From Branchiostoma floridae (lineage: Eukaryota; Chordata; Leptocardii; Amphioxiformes; Branchiostomatidae), in assembly GCF_000003815.2 (NCBI RefSeq), contig NC_049984.1, positions 14,527,314 to 14,591,313 of the forward strand: a stretch of DNA of 64,000 nt, read 5' to 3'. Positions 21,993-50,953 of the stretch are shown piece by piece. Each line of letters starts with the position of its first letter. Within the stretch, counting starts at the first letter, position 1. A model generated the notes under the pieces. That model was given only the letters and a program-made list of their open reading frames with translations. It made no database searches and was not told where the DNA came from. Position numbers and translations under genes: made by a program.

Positions 21993-34276
<12,284 letters not shown>

Positions 34277-34568: not shown

Positions 34569-34575
34569 TTCCACT
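34569..34575. repeat. 7-bp target-site duplication, left
   Basis: TTCCACT directly before GAGGTAACTCC; the same heptamer follows the right end at 48641-48647. The eighth bases differ, so the length is 7. Confidence 0.8.
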
Positions 34576-34750
34576 GAGGTAACTCCTGCCGTGATAGCCA
34601 CAGAGCAGCCGTGGATAGCAGCCGGGACACTATTATTTAAATGAGCCAAATGGTTGAATCCTATTGGTCGATTCTCCCCACACATGCGGGATTACTGCAG
34701 TATCGCCATTTTGCTGTCGGCTTTAGTAATGTAGCCGAGATTTGGTAAGT
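34576..34750 (+). repeat. Left 175-bp terminal inverted repeat
   Basis: Compared by eye with the reverse complement of 48466-48640: no difference found. Includes TATTGGTCGATTCTCCCC and GCCATTTTGCTGTCGG. Similarity stops after TTTGGTAAGT. Confidence 0.9.
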
Positions 34751-34917
34751 CTCAATAGCGCATACAACATAATCTAAGTAGAGTCAACACCTCAAAGGAA
34801 ACGTAGAGAAGACTAAAAAGTAGTAGAATGTATGTTTGGCTCTGGGGGAGACCACGAAAATCTCAGTGGCTCTTGTTCTCGTCACCAAGAAAGGCGTCGT
34901 ACTGATGAATGTAACGT

Positions 34918-36950
34918 TATGGTTCTTAGCTCTTGGGACCAGGTACAACACCTTACAGGTAATATTTGTGTGGCTCTTAGCTCTGGGGACCAGGTAACAC
35001 ACCTTACAGCTAATATTTGTGTGGGTCTTAGCTCTGGGGACCAGGTAGGGCACCTTACCTGTATCATTTGTGTGGCTCTTAGCTCTGGGGACCAGGTAAC
35101 ACACCTTACAGGTAATATTTGTATGGCTCTTAGCTCTGGGGACCAGGAAAGGCACCTTACAGGTAATATTTTTGTGGCTCTTAGCTCTGGGGACAAGGTA
35201 AGACACCTTACATGTATCATTTGTATGGCTCTTAGCTCTGGGGACCAGGAAAGGCACCTTACAGGTATATTTGTGTGGCTCTTAGCTCTGGGGACATGGT
35301 AAGACACCTTACATGTATCATTTGTGTGGCTCTTAGCTCTGGGGACCAGGTAACACACCTTACATGTAATATTTGTATGGCTCTTAGCTCTGGGGACCAG
35401 GAAAGGCACCTTACACTTACAGGTAATATTTGTGTGGCTCTTAGCTCTGAGGACAAGGTAAGACACCTTACATGTATCATTTGTGTGGCTCTTAGCTCTG
35501 GGAACCAGGTGAGGCACCTTACAGCTTATATTTGCATGGCTCTTAGCTCTGGGGACCAGGTAGGGCACCTTACATGTGATATTTGCATGGCTCTTAGCTC
35601 TGGGGACCAAGTAGGGCACCTTACATGTGATATTTGCATGGCATGTGATAGTTGCATGGCTCTTAGCTCTGGGGACTAGGTAGGGCACCTTACAGGTGAT
35701 ATTTGCATGGCTCTTAGCTCTGGGGACTAGGTAGGGCACCTTACAGGTGATATTTGCATGGCTCTTAGCTCTGGGGACCAGGTTTGCATGGCTCTTAGCT
35801 CTGGGGACCAGGTAGGGCACCTTACAGGTGATATTTGCATGGCTCTTAGCTCTGGGGACCAAGTAGGGCACCTTACAGGTGATATTTGCGTGGCTCTTAG
35901 CTCTGGGGACCAAGTAGGGCACCTTACAGGTGATATTTGCATGGCTCTTAGCTCTGGGGACCAGGTAGGGCACCTAACATGTGATATTTGCATGGCTCTT
36001 AGCTCTGGGGACCAAGTAGGGCACCTTACATGTGATATTTGCATGGCATGTGATTTTGCATGGCTCTTAGCTCTGGGGACCAAGTAGGGCACCTTACAGG
36101 TGATATTTGCGTGGCTCTTAGCTCAGAACTAGGTAGGGCACCTTACAGGTGATATTTGCATGGCTCTTAGCTCTGGGGACTAGGTAGGGCACCTTACAGG
36201 TGATATTTGCATGGCTCTTAGCTCTGGGGACTAGGTAGGCCACCTTACATGTGATATTTCCATGGCTCTTAGCTCTGGGGACCAAGTAGGGCACCTTACA
36301 TGTGATATTTGCATGGCTCTTAGCTCTGGGGACCAAGTAGGGCACCTTACAGGTGATATTTGCATGGCTCTTAGCTCTGGGGACCAGGTAGGGCACCTAA
36401 CATGTGATATTTGCATGGCATGTGATATTTGCATGGCTCTTAGCTCTGGGGACCAAGTAGGGCACCTTACAGGTGATATTTGCATGGCTCTTAGCTCTGG
36501 GGACCAAGTAGGGCACCTTACAGGTGATATTTGCATGGCTCTTAGCTCTGGGGACCAGGTAACATACCTTACAGGTAATATTTGTGTGTGTCTTAGCTCT
36601 GGGGACTATGTAACACACCGTACAGGTAATATTTGTGTGGCTCTTAGCTCTGCGGACCAGGGAGGGCACCTTACAGCTAATATTTGTGTGGCTCTTAGCT
36701 CTGGGGACCAGGTAACACACCTTGCAGGTAATATTTGTGTGTGTCTTAGCTCTGGGGACTATGTAACACACCGTACAGGTAATATTTGGGTGGCTCTTAG
36801 CTCTGGGGACCAGGGAGAGCACCTTACAGGTAATATTTGCGTGGCTCTTAGCTCTGGGGTCCAGGTAGGACACCTTACAGGTGATATTTGAGTGACTCTC
36901 AGCTCTGGGGACCAGTGAACACACCTGACAGGTAATATCTGAAGACCAGG
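34918..36950 (+). repeat. 51-bp minisatellite array, left arm
   Basis: About 40 units of 51 bp, core GGCTCTTAGCTCTGGGGACC then AGGTAGGGCACCTTACAGGT and GATATTTGC. Because 51 is 17 codons and units lack stops in several frames, long repetitive open frames arise on both strands (for example 34882-35973). Some units carry an extra GCATGGCATGTGATA segment (near 35640, 36045, 36417) or deletions (35780, 36124). Degenerate units trail to about 37200. Confidence 0.93.
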
Positions 36951-37530
36951 TCATGTGCTATACAGGTAACATATACATAATGTATATGGCTTATTGTTCT
37001 GTATATCTGTAACCAGGAACTGTACAGGTAATATATGCATGACTTGTCAGTCTCGAGACAAGGTAGGTACTCTATCTACAGATAACATATAGATTGTTGA
37101 TCTGGATACCTGTAAGTATATGTATATAAATAGGTGACATATGCATGGATGTTTGGTTTGGACTAAGGTACCATACGGGTAAAATTTACGGGTAAAAGTT
37201 CGTTGGCTGGCTAGACACTAAAAATGTACAGAATTGGTGCTGTTTGTTTGATTTTTGGTCTAGAGAAGGCCAAGGGTGAGGTAAGGTATTGTACAGGTTT
37301 ATCACACAACTTACAAATGCGAGAACAAGATTACTGCTCTTGATATCTCCATGAATGACTGGGTTTTGCATGTTTGTTTACAGACATCACTGAGACCATT
37401 TCTTCTTTTTTCAGGGGATTGATGCCTGAAAACGTGAAATGGCAGAAGAAGACAGGCTGATTACACAGCAGGAGTCAGAGCTCTTCATGCATCACTTGTC
37501 TGTCTATAGAGTGGTCATCAAAGTACCTGT

Positions 37531-38230
37531 TAGAGTCCATTCCAAGACACCATGCGGATGTTTGTTGCCATTGTTTAGAATTGATTTTAAAGTTTTGTAA
37601 TTATATGTCTAGGACATTTGATACTTAAGAAATATTTTTAACACTGTTTCAACTTTATAAATATATCCCTGGTCCTGTAAAACTTTGGAAATATTCATGG
37701 TGTGAAATTGGATACTTCTAATGGTTTCTAAATAATGATAACAGCATTCTACCATTATTTACCATTTTCTACCATTTTTTGTAAATGGTTCGGTGGGCTG
37801 GGAAGATAGCAATTCACACATCCTTGCAAAGTATGCTTGGGTGCCATGCAACAATGGCCCACCACAAAGGATCCACCAGTGCCCAGCAGTGAAGTCTAAA
37901 AATATACAGATGCAACAATAGGGCTTACTTTTATGGGGGCAATAAACTAATTCTACCATTTGGCCAGGTTTACCATTTTTTGTAAATATTTGTAAATGTG
38001 AAATAATCACAGAGAGGTTTCACAATTATTCTAAATAAAGATATTTTTGTACAGTTACTTTCAAAATGTTTCTAAAATATTCAAAGAAATTCAAATAAAT
38101 GAGTATTTTCTTAGTCAATTTTTTGAAAATAATTTAATTATTGTGGCTCAGATATTCTTTTATTCAAAATAATTTAGACTAATTATAAATATCGCCTAAA
38201 AACCCTCATGGTGTCTTGGAATGGACTCTA
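37531..38230. mobile_element. 700-bp MITE with 24-bp inverted ends, TA-flanked
   Basis: The first 24 and last 24 bp are exact inverted copies (left GAGTCCATTCCAAGACACC, right GGTGTCTTGGAATGGACTC). TA sits at each edge, so a Tc1/mariner-like TA insertion is possible. No coding capacity; the middle repeats ACCATTTTTTGTAAAT. Confidence 0.75.
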
Positions 38231-38554
38231 GTTGTTAACGTTAACAACATTGTTGGTCCAACTGAATACTACACGTTGTATAGAAAATATGAAATTTTCA
38301 GGTAGATTGGTCAGAAGTACAGTGTCCTGATAAATTGTGGAATAAGACTGTTGGTTTGTTTTGACCCCTTTGATACAAAGTCATCTGAGTGACACATGTT
38401 TGGGGCTTCAAAACCATATTAGCATATACTGGTAATAAATGAACATGTATGTTATATTTAGCACAATATTTTATCTTCTGCTGGTACTAAGATATATGTG
38501 AGTTTGCTTTGCCAACGTGAGTACTGTGTATAATTAGCAGTATATATACATATA

Positions 38555-38960
38555 GAATACAACACGATGTATTCCGTATCACTAGAGGTATCAGCCCAAC
38601 CGCGGGTCGGATCACCCGACGGCCGGTGATCCAACCCGCGGGAGGGCTGGGACCGAGGCCCGAGGGTGATGCGGAATACACCGTGTTGTGTTTTATTTAT
38701 GTCATACCCACCTGAGATGCTTTGATGCGAAATGCGCCAGAAGTTGAACAAATTTGGTGCCCTCAAACAAAAAGTGTTGCAACAGCAATGTTCCAATGTC
38801 CGAATCAGGTGTTCGAATTGCAAACCGTGCCGTATTCGGCCCGTTCGATTTACTCGAAGGAAGCATGTGTGATACGCCTTTCGAACCTGTGCGATACGGA
38901 AGTTATGGCCTGGTCTGGAACACCCGTATCGAACGTTTTCACGTCACAGGTATGACATAA
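38555..38960 (+). repeat. Dispersed repeat with GC-rich palindromic head
   Basis: Positions 38555-38693 form a long imperfect hairpin: outer arms ACAACACGATGTATTCCG and CGGAATACACCGTGTTGT, inner arms around CGACGGCCGG. The following sequence (ATGCGCCAGAAGTTGAA...) recurs inverted at 24304-24560. Confidence 0.7.
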
Positions 38961-39389
38961 TATTCATGATAGTTTGATCTGCCATTTTTTAAATTCTTAC
39001 CAAAATGAACTACACGTGTCATCTCTATTGTTCCAAGTGTCTTTGTGTGCAGTATATATAGGTCATATTCATATGTTCATATTTCAATGATGCCTGAGAA
39101 ATGTACGTCAGCAATCACTGTATATAACGTTATGTTACTGCATCTGTAAGCAGTGACACCTATAGCAGTAACGTTAGGGCAATATAAACTAGTCTGAATT
39201 GCTCTGAGGAAGGTGACAGATGGCCGGTGACATTGGTGTGAAATAAAGAAAGGGTTGTGAGAAAAAGAGTCTCTTCATTCACTGAAATGTACATTTTGAT
39301 AAGAAATACTGGGGTGCATGGAGGGTGTTAACCTTTTTTTTTAAATTTCGTTGGCGGATTAAGTGCATCTGTATAATGTTTGCCAGTTT

Positions 39390-39392
<3 letters not shown>

Positions 39393-39420
<28 letters not shown>
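39393..39420. repeat. TA microsatellite
   Basis: Uninterrupted TA dinucleotide run. Confidence 0.95.
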
Positions 39421-39999
39421 GGAATATGGATATGGGTGGTTACCGGATCACCGGACCTGTGTGTAATATCCAAAACCTGTCCCCAAGACACCTTAAATAA
39501 AAAAACCTGATTAAAAAAAACTTACGCGTGCTGCTTTCGTGCGGTTTCCCTACTCACATTGGTTGTGCAGGGCACGCCCGTCCTGGCTCGTACGGGGGTG
39601 AATCCGCAGCTCGAGCACAGAGAAAGTTCTGCATGCATTCTGTTAGGTTTTCGTATGAAGGCGTTACTTACCACGTACGGATCGCAAAGGATTGCCTACG
39701 TTTTGTACGTAGACAGCACGTACGACGGGTTGTGCCCCTAGCTTACCCTGGATTGGACCCAATAAAATGAAACGATATCCACCTCAACGACAAGTACTAG
39801 TGTAGTAGTAGTATCCTGCATAATGTGGAGCCGAGGTGTATAAATAAAGTGTACTCGTTTATGTGTGTGGATTATGTTTGTAACTTATGAACCCCAAATA
39901 AATATAGAGCTTAGAAGGCACTATGTTTTGGAAACCAACGCCCAATGTGTTTGAGACCACTGATCACAAAGTTACCTAGTAACAAGTAACTCGATAATG

Positions 40000-42300
40000 A
40001 TCAATGATTTCAGTATAGCAATTGGCATAGCGACTTTGCAAGCATTTATGAACATTTCAGCCAAATTTGAAAGAAATCCGATTTTCATAAAAGAGTCATA
40101 AGAGACATATGAAGTTTTAAACGTTCACGTTCAGATCGCGGAAGCCGCGTTCCAACCGCTATGTTCCGCAGAGACGATTCTGAGCACACACCTGTAACGT
40201 TACGTTTTTACAGCCTGACGGTTGATGGGAAACTACCATGTTTCTCCATATTGGGTTTTGATAAGGACTTCTTAGTGGTAAGATATATTGTGTTAGATAT
40301 CGATAAACGGAGCCAGTCGGACCTGGGCCCGAAATGTCCTGAATCTGAGGCCGAAATGTCCTCGGCCTAGGCCTGGGGCCAAAACACCCGGATTGGAATG
40401 GGGCCTATCTGCCCAAGTGCCGAACAGCCCTACATTCGAGGGGGAGCTATATTTTTACTTAAAACTTTCACAACGGTGGGCTAATATACTGAGCTATCTG
40501 TGTTGTTAGAAATGAGCTATCTGTGTTGCTAGAAATGTTGCACTTTTCGTTATTTTACAATTGTTTGAAGGTACATGAGTCCATTTATCTGTCGAAGTCG
40601 TCAGTTTCCGTGATCTCACAAAAGTCCAAACCCGGAAAGTCCGACATTACAAAATGATGTCCATCCTGAAATAGTCACAAATTTCCATATAACTCTACTA
40701 AAAGTAGTTCGGCGATATCAGCACTTCCCTCTGCAAGTGGTTACACCCGGTATACCCGAACGTTTATCTATGAAGTCCTCTTTTTATTTTCCAAACTTCA
40801 ACAGCTCAAAACTCAATAACCAATCAATATGATTTAATGAGAATTCATACAGCGACTTAGTAAGTTTTCATAGACATGTCGACCAAGTTTGGTACAAATC
40901 CGTCGTTTCCTAGGAGAGATATGAAAACCACTGCTGACGTTCCAGTATCGCACAAAGTGAGGGCGCACCCGACCGATATGTTCCACATAGGCAATTTTAG
41001 GCCAATTTGAACCCCGCATGACGGGAGTGCGTTTTACTTTATGAAACGAGGAAAAAGCGTTGTATATCGATGAAATTTTCACCACGGTAGGCTAATATAC
41101 TGATCTATAAGTAAGTCAAGCGATTTTGCTCTTCTAACTATCTACTTGGAGATATAGGCGATTCATATTTCCTCATTTTTCAGCTCGTGCGATATCTTTG
41201 CAGCAGGTGGCGCTTATCGGTGTCATTTGTCGACGTTTGACTTACTTGAATTCATCAATTGTCATCTGTACAATTGGCAAACATCCGTATGTTGATATTC
41301 CACTTGTCAAATGGCCTTCACAGTGCGCCTTGATGAATACATTGACAAAGAAAATACTAGTTATACATAATGGCGACATTCTATATCCTGGCGAGTCAAA
41401 CTCCAAAACTTTAACTGAGAGTTACTTGGAAACGAATCATCATCTGGTACTGGGATTTCAGAGAAAGGCTGAATAGGTTCACATGAACATGTGTGACGAA
41501 TATGACAAAAAATCTGTTGCATCTCAGATGAGATACAAATATGTTTAAAAACTGGGACCAGAGTACGTCACCTGATCTCACCTATGAGTCTGCTCTGCGC
41601 ATAACAGGTCTCAGTCGTCTGAACGCTCAGCTGAGGAGGGACATCCTATGTCTTAGATGTGCGCAGTCTCTTGCGAACTCTAGCAGATACAGTTCATGGC
41701 TCCCATTGCGGCGGGGGAACTTATAGAAATAATGTCAGCTTCACTAGTTTCAAATGTAGGACGTCCCGGTTGAGTAACAGCACTTTCCCCTATTGCGTCA
41801 GACTCCTAAGTGAAAACTTGCAGTGTTTTTTTAAAGGAATCGGACATATTAGTGTAACGTATTTAATATGTTGTATATGTACGTATATGTGAAGTGAACA
41901 ATGTACAAAAATTGCAATTCAGCCCTTTAAGGACCGGTGCAACAGTTTTTAATCTAATAAACCATTTCAGCATCATTTCATGTTACAGTTTTGCGCTCGA
42001 TGCAGGGCCACATCGTGACATCCACGTTTCGCATCCGCAAATCAAGGTCGATTTGAAGCGCATCACGAACAATCGCAGTTTCCTTCGTAAAACAAGAACG
42101 GCACGGTGATTTTCGATGAACCTTTTACAACGGTAGGCACATATCACTATCTACACTTGCCGTTAATAGGTTTGTCCTTCCTTTATTCAATTGGAAGTTC
42201 AATTAATTTCTTCTATTTTTGGACGGATGCTAAAAAACGTACCGGGAAAGTCCGTCATCACAAAAAGAAGAGGTAGGGTTAGGTAGTTCACTCGTCCTCA
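40000..42300 (+). repeat. Degenerate duplicated modules in the element core
   Basis: A motif near TTTTCACNACGGTRGGCTAAT recurs around 40470, 41080 and 42115. Upstream of the first two, similar text (AAATCCGATTTTCATAA / AAATCCGTCGTTTCC) recurs near 40074 and 40896. CCGGGAAAGTCC-like text recurs near 40633, 42241 and 44147. Spacing is irregular. Confidence 0.5.
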
Positions 42301-42649
42301 TTGAAATACAAAAATGGCGATTCTTGGGTCGAAAAATAAAACAGCTCATTTTTCAGTCAAAACTACATGATTGTTTGGGAAAATTCCTCTTTTACCCATA
42401 GCCAAAAATGGCAACTTTTTATTTTTGTACCCATTGGTTGTGTATTACAGGGCAGGTAACAAACGTTACTGGCAACGTTTGTTACAGCGGTACTCTTTAC
42501 CTTTTTTCTTCGAGTTGATTGACAGTATTGGCTACATCTTCTAGGTATAAGAGGACGTACCTAGGGACATTTAAATTAAAAAGTAGGCATGCGCAGCTTT
42601 TTTACACCAGGTCAGATAGATGATGTTAACGTTTATTACCGAATTTGGC

Positions 42650-44090
42650 GACATAAGATATCGCGAAACGATTTTCTTTGAACCAACTTTGTTAGGTGCA
42701 GAATAATGTTGTAACATAAAATATGCAAATTATTGGTCAAAATAGCTCAATTTGCCCTTCTGAGACAAAAAGAGCATTTTTCCGCAAAAACATAAGATAT
42801 TGCGAAACGATATCCGATTTTCTTCAAACCAACTTTGTAGGGTGCGGAATAATTTTCTGAAATGAAATATGCAAATTATTGGTAAAAACAGCTCAATTTG
42901 CTCTTCTGAGCCAAAAAGAGCATTTTTTCGCAAAAAAAAAAGATATCGCGAAACGATATCCGATTTTCTTCAAACCAACTTTGTTGGGTGCGGAATAATT
43001 TTCTGACATGAAATATGCAAATTATCGGTCAAAAAAGTTCAATTTGCTCTTCTGAGGCAAAAAGAGCATTATTTTTGCAAAAACATAAGATATCGCGAAA
43101 CGATGTCCGATTTTCTTCAAACCAACTTTGTTGGGTGCGGAATAATTTTCTGAAATGAAATATGCAAATTATTGGTAAAAACAGCTCAATTTGCTCTTCT
43201 GAGCCAAAAAGAGCATTTTTTCGCAAAAAAAAAAGATATCGCAAAACGATATCCGATTTTCTTCAAACCAACTTTGTAGGGTGCGGAATAATTTTCTGAA
43301 ATGAAATATGCAAATTATTGGTAAAAACAGCGCAATTTGCTCTTCTGAGCCAAAAAGAGCATTTTTTCGCAAAAAAAAAAGATATCGCGAAACGATATCC
43401 GATTTTCTTCAAACCAACTTTGTTGGGTGCGGAATAATTTTCTGAAATGAAATATGCAAATTATTGGTAAAAACAGCTCAATTTGCTCTTCTGAGCCAAA
43501 AAGAGCATTATTTTTGCAAAAACATAAGATATCGCGAAACGATGTCCGATTTTCTTCAAACCAACTTTGTAGGGTGCGGAATAATTTTCTGAAATGAAAT
43601 ATGCAAATTATTGGTAAAAACAGCTCAATTTGCTCTTCTGAGCCAAAAAGAGCATTTTTTCGCAAAAAAAAAAAAGCGCGAAACGATATCCGATTTTCTT
43701 CAAACCAACTTTGTTGGGTGCGGAATAATTTTCTGAAATGAAATTTGCAAATAATTGGTCAAAAAAGCGCAATTTGCTCTTCTGAGGCAAAAAGAGCATT
43801 TTTTCACAAAAAAAAAAAGATATTGCGAAATGATGTCTGATTCTCGTCAAACTAACTTTGTTGGGTGCGGAATAATTTTCTGACATGAAATATGCAAATT
43901 ATTGATCAAAATAGCTCAATTTACCCCAAAAGAGCATTTTTTTTTTGCAAAAACATAAGATATCGCGAAACAATGTCCAATTTTCTTCAAACCAACTTTA
44001 TTGGGTGTGGAATAATTTTCTGACATCAAATATATATATGCAACTTGTTTTAAAAATTCCATTTGCTCTTCTGAGGCAAAAAGAGCATTT
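42650..44090. repeat. 146-bp satellite, about 10 units
   Basis: Units of about 145-147 bp share ATATCGCGAAACGATATCCG, TTCTTCAAACCAACTTTGTT, GGTGCGGAATAATTTTCTGA and GCTCTTCTGAGCCAAAAAGA. Central units look nearly identical; end units are diverged. Open frames here are repeat products. Confidence 0.92.
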
Positions 44091-45377
44091 GTTATTAACG
44101 ATATCACAAAGCAATTTGTTTTTGGACAGGTGCTACGGTAAAACATGTACAGGGAAAGTACATCATTACAAAAATGAGGTAGGGTTAGATTGTCATATTG
44201 TAAAATTGACATAATTTTTCATATAAATCCGTATATGAAATATCAATAGTATCACTGCTTCCTTTTTCGTGATACCACAATCTCTTTGGAGTTATTCCAA
44301 CTTTTTATTGTAGAGTTGTGAGAAATAGATGTCGATTCAAATAGATAAACTCCCATCAGTTCTTATAAAAGTCTAAATTTTGTCATCAGTTAATCTTTAC
44401 TCATTTACTGATTATTACGAATCCATTTTCGTCTTCTCAGTCACCAAGATCAAGTCATATTGGTTGTATTAGATGTATACAAGTGGAATAATAAATGAGA
44501 AGGTTTTAATGCTATGCATCATAGAATATGCAGTGTATTTCTAACTTTACTACAATATACTGTACACAAAAGAAAATTAAAGCAATAGTCTAGTGAATCT
44601 GTATAGGTTCAAGAACTTTATTGTGCACCAGTAGGTAATGTAAACAGACTTAATTCACTATCTCCTTCGCTCTGTGACACAATTTGCACATAAACAACTT
44701 TGGGACAAAGTAATAAATTAATTAATAGTAAGTGACAAAGTTATAAACAACAAAAGACATGTCATCTCTCTTCCTGTAAGTTCTTCGGAAAAACTTTTGT
44801 GTTTTTGACAAAAACATAATTTAAGTATTGAGCTATTCAAACTAAATATTGTCACCAAATTTCATCACAATGTTGCCATGTTCACTGTTGGAAAATATTA
44901 ACACCTCTCAACATCAAAGAACCGACTCATTATATGACACATTGGACCCTTCCTTTTCCAAAGCTGACAGAAAAGAAGTCAACCTGAACATATTTACACT
45001 TTGGATATCACCATTTCACATCAGAGTAGCCACATGTCCCACATAGTCATTGTCATGTGTAACAAATTACAACCTTACAGAGTACGACCTAGGCTACTGA
45101 AGAGAATCAAGCACAAATTATAAATATAGAACATGACATAGAACATCCATCACAAACTTCCAGATAATTCACACAAAATCAATGTCTAAAAACTAAAAGG
45201 TACACATGACAACACTCCTGTGCAGCCAAGAAGTTGTCAAAATTGTGATAGAATTAAGATGGGTGTCATATTGTTGCAGACTGTATTATACAACAAAGGG
45301 AAATAGCTTCAATTGCATACAATATATGTTCCATATCTTCTGATATCAACATAGCACAGGAAACCTAATCTTACTTA

Positions 45378-45808
45378 GGCCACACCAATTTAATTTCTTG
45401 GTTCACGGATTCGCTCGCTCCTATTTTTTGGGGAAAAAATAAAAATAAAAATTACCACTCAGCAAATTTTCACCATCAATGAAACCATTCACCAACTTTC
45501 TGGTGTAACAAATTGGCCTTAATATTATATAAGCTTCTTAAAATGTGGGTATTATTATTGCAGTCATATTTTTCATTCATGAAGAATGGGACAAACATAA
45601 AAACTGACACTACTTTTGTAATTTTAAACAAACTGGTGCTGTAACTGTACAGTAATAGTGTTTTTGTACTTTTTTCAAACTGAAAACCTTTTAAGTTTTA
45701 TTCTTTATGTTTTGGATTAGCCCTTACCTTTACCCCAACCATTTTACAAACTCGCTCCATATTTTTTATGAAAAAATCCGTGAACCAAGAAATTAAATTG
45801 GTGTGGTC
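45378..45808. mobile_element. 431-bp PIF/Harbinger-type MITE
   Basis: About 33-bp inverted ends (CCACACCAATTTAATTTCTT then GGTTCACGGAT), one mismatch seen, flanked by TTA at 45375-45377 and 45809-45811. A 3-bp TTA duplication is typical of PIF/Harbinger. No ORF. Confidence 0.82.
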
Positions 45809-45845
45809 TTAGTATGTAATTAGACAAACCATGTAATAAAAGCTG

Positions 45846-46225
45846 AGGGCTCAAAATACTGGGTGCGTGTGCACCCTGGTGCACCCAAAATTGGAGCTAT
45901 GCACCCAATTTTTTTCTGTGGGTTCACCAGCACAGTGCACCCGAACATTTTATTAGGTTTACACAAAGGTCATGTTAGGATATCAGAGTATACTAGTATA
46001 CACAATGGTCTTCGCATCTAAGTAATAGAAAGACAACTAAAATGTCTGTCATGGTACAAAATGTACTTGTTTAGGAATTTAATTTAATAAGCTTGTAATT
46101 ATCAAGTTTTGTAATTACTTTTTTTTTTCTGACAGTCTACTTTATTTTATGTGGTGCACCCAAAATCTCACCCAATTTTTTCAGTGCACTGTGCACCTAA
46201 TCCAAAAATTTGAATTTCGAGCCCT
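45846..46225. mobile_element. Inverted-repeat element, hAT-like ends
   Basis: Begins AGGGCTCAAAAT and ends ATTTCGAGCCCT, with internal GGTGCACCC/GGGTGCACC-type repeats mirrored. Ends resemble hAT termini, but no 8-bp duplication is evident. Confidence 0.5.
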
Positions 46226-46680
46226 GTAGCTCCATCCTTTCCATACATTCATAGCTGCAAGAAGCGAAAAGTGGAACCTATCCCAGACTTTGCTCCAGGA
46301 TCTTAGTTCGTTCTTCTGGTTGAATAAAGTCTTCATCAGTGTGGGTCTGTGAGAAGCCTTCCCTGTAGACTCTTCCTTTCCTTTGTGACTTTCTCCATCT
46401 AAAACAATGTACAAAAAAATTATTACCTCACAGGCGAGACAAGATATACAACAAGGTATTGGCCATCAATCTTGTTCCAGTGGTCTGACCAGTGGGTCTG
46501 TGCTGCTACAGGAATGATTTATTCCCAGGCTAGAAAAGTGCTAAATAAACCTTTAAGCAAAAAAAAATAAGGTAACTTAAGGTATGCTTACTCTCATTAG
46601 ATATAATGGGAAGTTTCTGGCTTCAGAATGTGTCTTCAGCTAAACATGTACTAGTACAGTGAAAACAAGCTAAATGCAGA

Positions 46681-48430
46681 ATTGTGTTACCTGGTCCCCA
46701 GAGCTAAGAGCCACAAAGATATTACCTGTAAGATGTGTTACCTTGTCCCAAGAGATAAGAGCCACACAAATATTACCTGTGAGGTGCCCTACCTGGTGCC
46801 AAGAGCCAAAAGCCACCCAAATACATGTATTACCTGTAAGGTGCCCTATATGGTCCCCAGAGCTAAGAGCCACACAAATATTACCTGTAAGGTGCCCTAC
46901 CTGGTCCCCAGAGCTAAGAGCTACACAAACATTACCTGTATGGTACCCTACCTAGTCCCTAGAGCTAAGAGCCACACAAATATTACCTGTAAGGTGCCCT
47001 ACCTGGTCCCCAGAGCTAAGAGCCACACAAATATCACCAGTAAGGTGCCCTACCTGGGCGCAGAGCTAAAAGCCACAGAAATATCACCTGTAAGGTGCCC
47101 TAACTGGTCCCCAGAGCTAAGAGCCACAGAAATATTACCTGTAAGATGCCCTAACTGGTCCCCAGAGCTAAGAGCCACGCAAATATCACCTGTAAGGTGC
47201 CCTAACTGGTCCCCAGAGGTAAGAGTCACACAAATATTACCTGTAAGGTGTCCTACCTGGTCCCCAGAGCTAAGAGCCACTGAAATATCACCTGTAAGGT
47301 GCCCTAACTGGTCCCCAGAGCTAAGAGCCACGCAAATATTACNNNNNNNNNNNNNNNNNNNNNNNNNNNNNNNNNNNNNNNNNNNNNNNNNNNNNNNNNN
47401 NNNNNNNNNNNNNNNNNNNNNNNNNNNNNNNNNNNNNNNNNNGAGCCACGCAAATATCACCTGTAAGGTCCCCTACCTAGTCCCCAGAGCTAAGAGCCAC
47501 GCAAATATTACCTGTAAGGTGCCCTAACTGGTCCCCAGAGCTAACAGCCACGCAAATATCACCTGTAAGGTGCCCTCCCTGGTCCTCAGAGCTAAGAGCC
47601 ACGCAAATATCACCTGTAAGGTGCCCTACCTGGTCCCCAGAGCTAAGAGCCACCCAAATATCACCTGTAAGTTGCCCTACCTGGTCCCCAGAGCTAAGAG
47701 CCACGCAAATATTACCTGTAAGGTGCCCTCCCTGGTCCACAGAGCTAAGAGCCACCCAAATATTACCTGTAAGGTGCCCTCCCTGGTCCACAGAGCTAAG
47801 AGCCACAGAAATATCACCTGAAAGGTGCCCTACCTGGTCCCCAGAGCTAAGAGCCACGCAAATATTACCTGTAAGGTGCCCTACCTGGTCCCCAGAGCTA
47901 AGAGCCACGCAAATATCACCTGTAAGGTGCCCTACCTGGTCCCCAGAGCTAAGAGCCACGCAAATATCACCTGTAAGGTGCCCTACCTGGTCCGCAGAGC
48001 TAAGAGCCACGCAAATATCACCTGTAAGGTGCCCTACCTGGTCCCCAGAGCTAAGAGCCACGCAAATATCACCTGTAAGGTGCCCTACCTGGTCCGCAGA
48101 GCTAAGAGCCACGCAAATATCACCTGTAAGGTGCCCTACCTGGTCCCCAGAGCTAAGAGCCACGCAAATATCACCTGTAAGGTGCCCTACCTGGTCCCCA
48201 GAGCTAAGAGTCACGCAAATATCACCTGTAAGGTGCCCTACTTGGTCCCCAGAGCTAAGAGCCACGCAAATATTACCTGTAAGGTGCCCTACCTGGTCCG
48301 CAGAGCTAAGAGACACAGAAATATCACCTGTAAGGTGCCCTACCTGGTCCCCAGAGCTAAGAGCCACACGAATATTACCTGTAAGGTTCCCTACCTGGAC
48401 CCCATAGCTAAGAGCCACGCAAATATTACA
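46681..48430 (-). repeat. 51-bp minisatellite array, right arm
   Basis: Same 51-bp unit as the left arm but inverted (GGTCCCCAGAGCTAAGAGCC on the + strand), interrupted by 100 N at 47343-47442. Long open frames here (46682-47527, 47477-48451) are products of the repeat, not genes. Confidence 0.93.
47343..47442. other. Assembly gap (100 N)
   Basis: Exactly 100 N inside the right minisatellite arm, a conventional unknown-size gap. The true array may be longer. Confidence 0.99.
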
Positions 48431-48465
48431 TTGATAGTCCCAGAAATACAATATTTCAGAACGAA

Positions 48466-48640
48466 ACTTACCAAATCTCGGCTACATTACTAAAGCCGAC
48501 AGCAAAATGGCGATACTGCAGTAATCCCGCATGTGTGGGGAGAATCGACCAATAGGATTCAACCATTTGGCTCATTTAAATAATAGTGTCCCGGCTGCTA
48601 TCCACGGCTGCTCTGTGGCTATCACGGCAGGAGTTACCTC
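48466..48640 (-). repeat. Right 175-bp terminal inverted repeat
   Basis: Exact inverse of 34576-34750, immediately followed by the TTCCACT target duplication. Confidence 0.9.
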
Positions 48641-48647
48641 TTCCACT
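48641..48647. repeat. 7-bp target-site duplication, right
   Basis: TTCCACT directly after GGAGTTACCTC; pairs with the left copy. Confidence 0.8.
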
Positions 48648-50073: not shown

Positions 50074-50953
50074 ATGGTGTGCAAGGAAGAGGTCTTCTCC
50101 TGGTTCCAAAGTTTGACCAGTCCCAAAAGGATAGAATTTTTGTGCGGGCTGTTGGATTTCTGTCACCCTATCGAGCTTCGATTCTTGGGAACCTGTCTAG
50201 AAGAGCTGTGCCGAAAGGATTACAACTTTCTCAGGGACTCCGAGCAAAAGGCGAACAACACACATGAACTACAGTCACTGGACGATATCGGAGATGATAC
50301 CGTACGGACGAAACTTATCGTGTATCTGGCTCTGTTGTACACGACGAATAGTCAGGGGTCGAACGTTCTGTCCCATACATTGAATCACGTTGAAAGCACC
50401 GTTCTGAATGGGCTGCAGCTCACAGAGCAAATCAAGGAGGAGTTTCTCCTGCTCCTCGCCATGGCAGCTAACCACCCCGCGTTTTCCATCCACCAGCGTC
50501 TGACTTTCAGTACCCAGATGGAAAGGTTACAAGCTCAGCCAACTGTTGAAGTGTGTAAGGTAAGTACCCAAGCCTGCCAAATCTCACCACCCCCTGGAGT
50601 AAACCCCCTTCCCCTTGGGGAGGGGGGTCACTTTGGGTTTCTGCACCAGATTTGCTAACAGCTGGCAGAAGATAGTACAGACAGCAGGGAATCCCACCCA
50701 CTTCTCCTGAAATGTCTGGATCTAATTCTCCCATCCTTTCCCCAGACCTTCTCTGCTATTTTTGAATACCAACTATGGGCACAACTTTTAACCTGAACCT
50801 GTAACATATTTAGTTGCATCTTGGTTGTCTAAATGTAGGGGTCAAGTGCAGATCATAGGAAAGAGGAGGAGGAGGTCATCTCTGAGGAGAACTTCACAAC
50901 TCCTGGTACGCAGCCCAACACAGACAACAGCAAGGAGACTCAACAACCAAAAG
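50074..50953 (+). CDS. ZCCHC14: ZCCHC14/ZCCHC2-like protein, first two coding exons (gene continues)
   Basis: Exons 50074-50559 and 50839-50953 join in phase 0 (AAG|gtaagt, aaatgtag|GGG). Exon 1 (162 codons) matches the conserved N-terminal region of ZCCHC14/ZCCHC2: FSWFQSLTSPKRIEFLCGLL, HPIELRFLGTCLEELCRKDY, LRDSEQKANN, and FLLLLAMAANHPAFSIHQR. Exon 2 is an acidic/polar linker (38 codons plus one base). SAM and CCHC zinc-knuckle exons, expected downstream, are not in the window. Vertebrate ZCCHC14 binds RNA stem-loops and recruits TENT4 poly(A) polymerases. The choice between ZCCHC14 and ZCCHC2 cannot be made from this part; an ancestral single gene is likely. It is head to head with KLHDC4, separated by the 14-kb element. 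Confidence 0.88.
50839..50953 (+). CDS. ZCCHC14: ZCCHC14-like exon 2
   Basis: From tag|GGG to AAAAG|gtaggt. Encodes KEEEEVISEENFTTPGTQPN and flanking polar residues. Reading frame and phase fit exon 1; the sequence itself is too low in complexity to identify alone. Confidence 0.75.

Follow-up and report, generated by a model that had tools for sequence, protein, structure and literature searches.

Architecture of the element

The window analysed here is a stretch of 64,000 nucleotides of the Branchiostoma floridae genome (C6:14527314-14591313), and the genome searched is the same assembly (513 Mb, 431 contigs). Positions 34576-48640 of the window are occupied by an element of 14065 bp, hereafter E1, which displays terminal inverted repeats (TIRs), tandem arrays facing each other across a long interior, and a direct repeat abutting both outer ends in the manner of a target-site duplication (TSD). 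From left to right, E1 and its borders are composed as follows, the arrays being those delimited by Tandem Repeats Finder (TRF).

34569-34575: left copy of the TSD, TTCCACT
34576-34750, plus strand: left TIR, 175 bp, tip GAGGTAACTCC, exact match with the right end
34918-36938, plus strand: left arm, array of 51-bp units facing inward (38 core matches on the plus strand)
36942-46687: interior without recognised transposase, largely common to the other E copies
46688-48429, minus strand: right arm, array of 51-bp units facing inward (31 core matches on the minus strand)
47343-47442: assembly gap of 100 N, within the right arm
48466-48640, minus strand: right TIR, 175 bp
48641-48647: right copy of the TSD, TTCCACT

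The left and right TIRs match at 175 of 175 bases, the heptamer stands in direct orientation at both ends, and the arrays inward of each end are in opposite orientation. These three features had been pointed out by an earlier note drawn from the letters of this DNA, and all of them are confirmed. The 51-bp units are alike without being identical, since the TRF rows give 83-92% matches, and the spacing between TIR and array is 167 bp on the left and 36 bp on the right. The gap within the right arm implies that the assembly does not give the true length of this array in E1 and that the right end is joined by scaffolding.

A family of eleven copies in two subfamilies

Compared with its own genome, the 175-bp TIR returns 13 matches, which resolve into six inward-facing pairs (12 full-length matches) and one partial match. 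One of the pairs is E1; the five others delimit the following elements, which together with it are named subfamily E.

C2:12466822-12481990: E2, 15169 bp, TSD CACTGAC
C299:10452-24808: E3, 14357 bp, flanks AAACACT versus GTTACAT
C6:6177066-6191138: E4, 14073 bp, TSD CGCGTGA, opposite orientation
C4:923278-940014: E5, 16737 bp, TSD CAGTGTG
C13:2583664-2600861: E6, 17198 bp, TSD AAATTTTG (8 bp), opposite orientation

The 51-bp arrays, a 146-bp satellite and much of the interior are common to the six E copies, while inserts and gaps are copy-specific. To note, E3, with mismatched 7-mers and ends that are 98.3% alike, lies at a contig end and is either a recombinant copy or an assembly join. A query taken from the interior (41100-42500), for which 40 of 580 candidates were scored, retrieves further loci, among them at least five at 82-84% identity. 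Five such loci form subfamily R, each being a complete element (8195-11287 bp) with a 7-bp TSD.

C5:16.90 Mb: R1, TSD AGTAGTG
C5:12.15 Mb: R2, TSD AAATACC
C4:21.19 Mb: R3, TSD CTCACAA
C19:7.19 Mb: R4, TSD AAATGTC
C8:13.41 Mb: R5, TSD TCAAAAC

The R elements exhibit mirrored 51-bp arrays as in E, and all five contain the 146-bp satellite, at 83-95% identity. Their tips read GAGCTATAGGT on the left and GAGGTATTAT on the right, and are followed by an inverted repeat of ~360 bp. When the E interior (39671-46655) is compared with those of R3 and R4, blocks are found in the same order at 82-97% identity, ~84% in the long blocks. The full elements thus total 11, on eight contigs: six E (14.1-17.2 kb) and five R (8.2-11.3 kb). 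The units are oriented plus on the left and minus on the right in 11 of 11 copies, and their numbers range in E from 24 to 56 on the left and from 18 to 42 on the right, in R from 4 to 41 and from 5 to 15, respectively. TSDs match in 10 of the 11 copies, with a length of 7 bp in nine and 8 bp in the tenth. In these ten copies, partner flanks share 7 or 8 bases in 10/10 pairs; among the 90 non-partner pairs, none shares 5 bases or more and a single one shares 4.

We conclude, with a probability of about 0.9, that E1 is one copy of a small family of B. floridae DNA transposons (TIR order) that are foldback-like and non-autonomous. By plan, its members have TIRs with the tip GAG[GC]TA, an inward-facing array of 51-bp units at either end, and a long interior in which no transposase was recognised. 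The structural traits of foldback elements considered here are present, with mirrored tandem-repeat arms in 11/11 copies, TSDs in 10/11 and dispersal on eight contigs. The earlier note had taken the locus for a transposed unit of foldback-like build rather than for two independent satellites, which the paired copies elsewhere and their matching TSDs bear out. Its expectation that the TIR would reveal many pairs with duplications holds for the pairs and the duplications (six pairs by the TIR, E1 included, and five more by the interior) and fails for the number, which is only 11.

Several observations weigh against this reading. N runs are present in several copies besides the gap in the right arm of E1. 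E3 lacks a matching TSD, and the earlier note had held that a copy without a 7-bp duplication would speak against its proposal, but C299 stops 7 bp past the TIR. The ends are unevenly alike: exact end-to-end runs measure 175 bp in E1, 288 in E4, 299 in E5 and 288 in E6, and only 76 in E2 and 77 in E3, the ends of which are not identical. In R, the first 11 bases on the left differ from those on the right in 5/5 copies, and the exact runs that follow measure 17, 61, 168, 185 and 30 bp. A single TIR sequence is common over 175 bp to E4, E5 and the left end of E3, with E6 at 99.4% identity to it, so that the identical ends of E4-E6 may reflect youth alone. Finally, no autonomous copy or transposase was found among the 11 copies, part of whose open frames were scanned with Pfam. 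The N runs, the gap and the mismatched flanks of E3 at a contig end would also be expected if the inverted arms were an assembly artefact, or independent satellites facing each other by chance. We regard this as highly improbable in view of the paired ends seen at 11 loci on eight contigs, where ten loci have matching TSDs that differ from one locus to the next, and of E4 and E5, which contain no N at all, flanks included. The matching TSD of E1 and the ten other loci likewise make a false join at its gap unlikely.

The TIR core shared by E and R, CTATTGGTCRATN{25,48}CGCCAT, has 21 matches in the 513 Mb, against none for a backward-read control, and 21 of 21 are ends of the six E and five R elements (21 of their 22 ends, the right end of E3 being missed). 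Diverged relatives do not carry the exact core. One of them is P7, the partial TIR match on C2, in which the TIR core resembles that of E and the subterminal zone that of R, with a single unit-like stretch of 38 bp; it is a relic linking the two subfamilies. A sixth R locus, R6, is a fragment without arrays. The right-interior segment 46228-46660 is found at 14 places (first-look candidates only), namely the six E, the five R and one each on C3, C15 and C1, the last three at 76-83% identity in their main pieces. The capture of a gene by this segment was considered and set aside, no distinct host gene being seen among these 14 places. The 2.5-kb pieces of the C15 and C1 relatives show partial similarity to the element and no recognised transposase. 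Outside B. floridae, a predicted B. belcheri protein, Bbelb_208780 (P0121), was the sole match of its search (73% over 70 residues), its gene model reading about four 51-bp units as coding; the 51-bp unit therefore seems older than one species. A description of the family was not found in the literature, a search that did not extend to Repbase.

Interior content

The interior of E1 harbors the following features.

37415-37531, plus strand: exon-like stretch after ttttttcag, with an ATG frame MAEEDRLITQQESELFMHHLSVYR.., in 6/6 E copies
37532-38229: ~700-bp insert with inverted ends, in E1 only among the six E copies
41443-41446: insertion site, in E3-E6, of a common sequence of ~1.14 kb that includes a reverse-transcriptase fragment
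42669-44090: second tandem array (TRF), 146-bp unit, also in E2-E6 and R1-R5 (83-95%)
46456-46508, minus strand: 53-bp block in which E1 and R4 agree exactly, set in less conserved sequence, open on the minus strand (AAQTHWSDHWNKIDGQY)

The insert shared by E3-E6 matches RVT_1 (E 3.4e-19 in E3); it is absent from E1, and E2 is deleted over the site. Its presence at one place in E3-E6 indicates that a nested insert travelled with the element as the copies multiplied. Two other nested sequences were noticed. At 45372-45814 lies an element with 40-bp inverted ends, of which several copies or pieces, partly inverted, occur in E2 and R4, and which seems to multiply inside the family; within the zone of blocks common to E and R, the nested repeat near 45374-45820 is inverted in R. 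A dispersed repeat of ~420 bp (41551-41968) has, among the 40 candidates scored out of 580, at least about two dozen other occurrences in the genome, at 75-84% identity.

Coding capacity was assessed from lists, given in part, of open frames of at least 90 residues (E) or 85 residues (R), and from Pfam searches with 14 interior frames taken from E1 and 11 frames taken from E3, E5, R4 and R5, a procedure that short exons could escape. None of the 14 E1 frames has a Pfam match above the curated cut-off. The best is CIP2A_N (E 0.0056, 15.8 bits for a cut-off of 26.3), and the minus-strand frame at 46281-46427 gives HTH_Tnp_2 at E 0.11 (12.8 bits for 23.8). Ten frames of E5, R4 and R5 yield nothing over the cut-off, and the left exon-like stretch has no Pfam or PDB match. 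Codon-position counts, made on few variable sites, indicate no protein constraint. The possibility of a coding interior was thus pursued with the frame lists, Pfam on the frames given above, codon-position counts and the PDB, none of which yielded a transposase. The absence of a visible transposase in E1, remarked upon in the earlier note, extends to all 11 copies within the frames covered, a transposase split into short exons being able to pass unseen.

Signals in the TIR and in the arrays

The left TIR of E1 carries three signal-like motifs.

34663-34667, plus strand: ATTGG (inverted CCAAT box) at TIR position 88, in the block CTATTGGTC common to E and R
34704-34712, plus strand: CGCCATTTT, match to the YY1 motif CGCCATNTT, a putative binding site
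34744-34750, plus strand: GGTAAGT, the last bases of the identical TIR, resembling a splice donor and possibly used as one

In passages of PMC7481187, YY1 is described to bind the motif CGCCATNTT in the TIRs of the lancelet transposon ProtoRAG. The motif has five matches in the 64-kb window, of which each TIR of E1 holds one, and the left TIR of R4 has CGCCATGCT, one base off. ProtoRAG thus shares with the E-type element a TIR with a YY1 motif, and differs from it by its 5-bp TSD and its RAG1-like and RAG2-like proteins (PMC7481187, same passages). As judged from these motifs, the TIR may have a promoter role.

A more elaborate proposal can be built on them. The arrays would be related to the "mirage" minisatellites found in amphioxus introns, and the TIR would constitute a promoter and a first exon ending in GTAAGT. 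With the array in the first intron, inward transcripts would reach the exon-like stretches, the whole being the remnant of an autonomous two-gene element. The CCAAT-type box, the YY1 motif and the GGTAAGT of the E-type TIR fit this proposal, as do, on the left, the ATG frame that a polypyrimidine/AG precedes in 6/6 E copies, on the right the exact 53-bp E1/R4 block, and the CAG|GTAGGG carried by the 51-bp unit. In the consulted part of PMC3087553, tandem repeats are reported at amphioxus exon-intron boundaries, many of these minisatellite units having splice signals. The mirage repeats are located at exon-intron borders of host genes, whereas the present arrays are parts of a mobile element. 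Against the proposal stand the codon-position counts and the exon-like stretches, which have no significant Pfam or PDB match, the HTH_Tnp_2 score being the best. Moreover, the left exon-like stretch was not found in R1-R6, and GTAAGT is missing from the first 370 bp at the left end of R4, which contain only a GTAAG, at 190. We consider this proposal unlikely, and retain a non-autonomous element with tandem-repeat arms.

Age of the family and exchange between arms

Divergence was counted as substitutions in alignments of the interior, with at most six segments and 3.3-6.9 kb compared for each pair. It amounts to 0.31-0.67% within E3-E6 and to 1.12-1.77% in pairs involving E1 or E2, which indicates a young family. 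The BLAST identity of interior segments to E1, which counts gaps, is lower, mostly 93-99%. The sequenced amphioxus species have a heterozygosity of 3.2-4.2% according to a portion of PMC12500494; E copies diverge less than this, and insertion polymorphism is therefore likely.

Two types of arm can be distinguished, one represented by the left arms of E1 and E2, the other by the right arms of E1 and E2 and both arms of E3-E6. The TIR of E1 is 98.3% like the left end of E2 and 94.9-96.6% like the ends of E3-E6. The right arm of E1 is of the left type for 175 bp and of the other type beyond, with the switch exactly where homology stops. On the simplest reading of these alignments, the right TIR of E1 was converted by the left TIR, the conversion being limited by the end of homology, and the left arm was replaced in the ancestor of E3-E6. 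The earlier note had derived from the TIR identity either a recent insertion or gene conversion; low divergence supports the former and the E1 arm the latter.

It is tempting to extend arm conversion to the transposition process itself. Following excision or in the course of repair, transposition would rebuild one arm by using the other as its template (a self-templated repair of the foldback arms), so that each new insertion would start with like ends and reset arrays, the arrays acting as a pairing platform. If true, the end identity within a copy would date its last jump and not the age of its lineage. The differing ends of E2 and E3 and the tips and exact runs of R show that end homogenisation is not general and count against conversion at each jump. 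We regard this extension as improbable.

What moves the element, and likeness to known systems

Since neither a transposase nor an autonomous copy was found, the element is inferred to move in trans. A transposase from another source would recognise the TIR, perhaps its shared CTATTGGTCRAT...CGCCAT core, and would cut the unit out as a whole and reinsert it with a stagger of 7 bp; pairing and conversion could take place between the inverted arms, and the arrays may lengthen or shorten independently. No clear target consensus emerges from the insertion sites. The genome was searched for transposases with one P-type and one MULE (Mutator-like element) model.

The earlier note had linked the element to Galileo and P-type integrases. 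According to this proposal, the family would be a Galileo-like member of the P superfamily, moved by a THAP/P-type transposase for which the arms hold extra sites. The TSD length agrees with it, 7 bp (as in Galileo) in nine copies and 8 bp (as in P) in one, the remaining copy having no match. Passages of PMC3573991 on the Drosophila Galileo depict copies flanked by 7-bp sequences, with foldback-like long ends and, in one group, tandem repeats inside, as well as repeat numbers that differ between the TIRs of one copy and chimeric copies with non-matching 7-mers, a set of traits shared with the present family. The B. floridae genome also holds P-type RNase H domains (PF21787, at least three matches). 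Differences from Galileo comprise the lack of a recognised transposase, the 9.7-kb interior of E1, the 51-bp unit and the chordate host. The tips differ as well: those of P and Galileo begin with CA, and here they read GAGGTA in E and GAGCTA or GAGGTA in R. A P-type transposase (THAP plus RNase H-like) was not recognised within the frames covered in the 11 copies, to which the search with the exact core added no further copy. Among the PF21787 matches listed, none lies within 0.4 Mb of a copy, the nearest being at 0.42 Mb. Two of the three PF21787 loci were inspected as possible sources and neither supports a link: no convincing inverted pair is found within ~4.4 kb of the domain, and similarity to the element is only of chance length. 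A derivation of the 51-bp unit from the TIR is not supported either, as shuffles score as high in 70/300 and 135/300 cases; the unit is thus not significantly TIR-like, which counts against the Galileo-like proposal. The Galileo/P link is therefore not shown, and we rate it as possible rather than probable.

The second candidate is a foldback element of MULE type, moved by a MULE transposase of the genome. The MULE domain PF10551 has at least 27 genomic matches, several of which contain long open frames and come in pairs of equal score. Two of them, C2:20560291 and C13:5001006, have equal scores and open frames of 1384 and 630 residues, and multi-copy MULEs with open frames seem to be present in B. 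floridae. The tip GAGGTAA is similar to GAGATAA, the tip of Mu. MULE TSDs usually measure 8-11 bp, compared to 7 bp in nine of the ten matching copies here. In the part of PMC4079207 consulted, most foldback elements are held to be Mutator-like. A MULE transposase was not recognised within the frames covered in the element copies, and the nearest of the genomic matches listed lies 2.0 Mb from a copy. This candidate, too, is rated as possible rather than probable. Among the 11 copies, none was recognised as the longer copy with a THAP/P-type or MULE transposase that the earlier note had proposed to look for. We leave the superfamily open: the 7-bp TSDs favor P/Galileo, and the GAG tip does not.

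A third superfamily, Dada, would fit by TSD length alone (6-7 bp), but it is described in passages of PMC3706591 as having no TIR and inserting into small-RNA genes. The long TIRs of the present family led to its rejection, along with Rfam and tRNA scans that were empty in the window, the only region scanned.

By its build, the family is reminiscent of further foldback elements. Drosophila FB and sea-urchin TU elements have arms built of short tandem repeats in inverted orientation, enclosing a middle foreign to the arms, as here, and differ in their TSDs, 9 bp in FB and 8 bp in TU. The excerpts of PMC4079207 on Tetris of Drosophila virilis portray a non-autonomous element with few complete copies and no known transposase, in which the TIR combines a flanking and a tandem-repeat domain, all of which is shared. 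Tetris has a TSD of 8-10 bp and a 220-bp unit (PMC4079207, same excerpts), whereas the present family has 7 bp, a 51-bp unit and an inner 146-bp satellite.

Foldback-type elements are, to our knowledge, poorly documented in chordates. The 11 assembled copies of the present family make up a compact set divided between two subfamilies; one copy displays a sharply bounded arm conversion, and the family ties together a minisatellite and a 146-bp satellite within one transposon family; the missing transposase becomes a defined target. In flies, Galileo and Tetris are reported, in parts of PMC4079207 and PMC3573991, to have made inversions and seeded satellites.

Neighbourhood of E1

E1 sits between a DDE gene, of which 28590-29693 on the minus strand is a part, and an open frame with a Vts1-type domain (50074-50658). 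The protein encoded by 28590-29693 is 100% identical to a predicted B. floridae protein over 98% of its length and 85% identical to one of B. lanceolatum. The gene, at 28590-31017 on the minus strand, encodes HTH_Tnp_4 and DDE_Tnp_4 domains, to which the full predicted protein (P0001) adds a THAP domain, with an exon placed by eye near 30694-31017. It is possibly a domesticated transposase beside E1. Just downstream of it, TRF reports a 155-bp tandem array (28002-28537), and a 469-residue open frame at 26151-27560 contains a YqaJ-type viral recombinase domain (Pfam E 1.1e-19).

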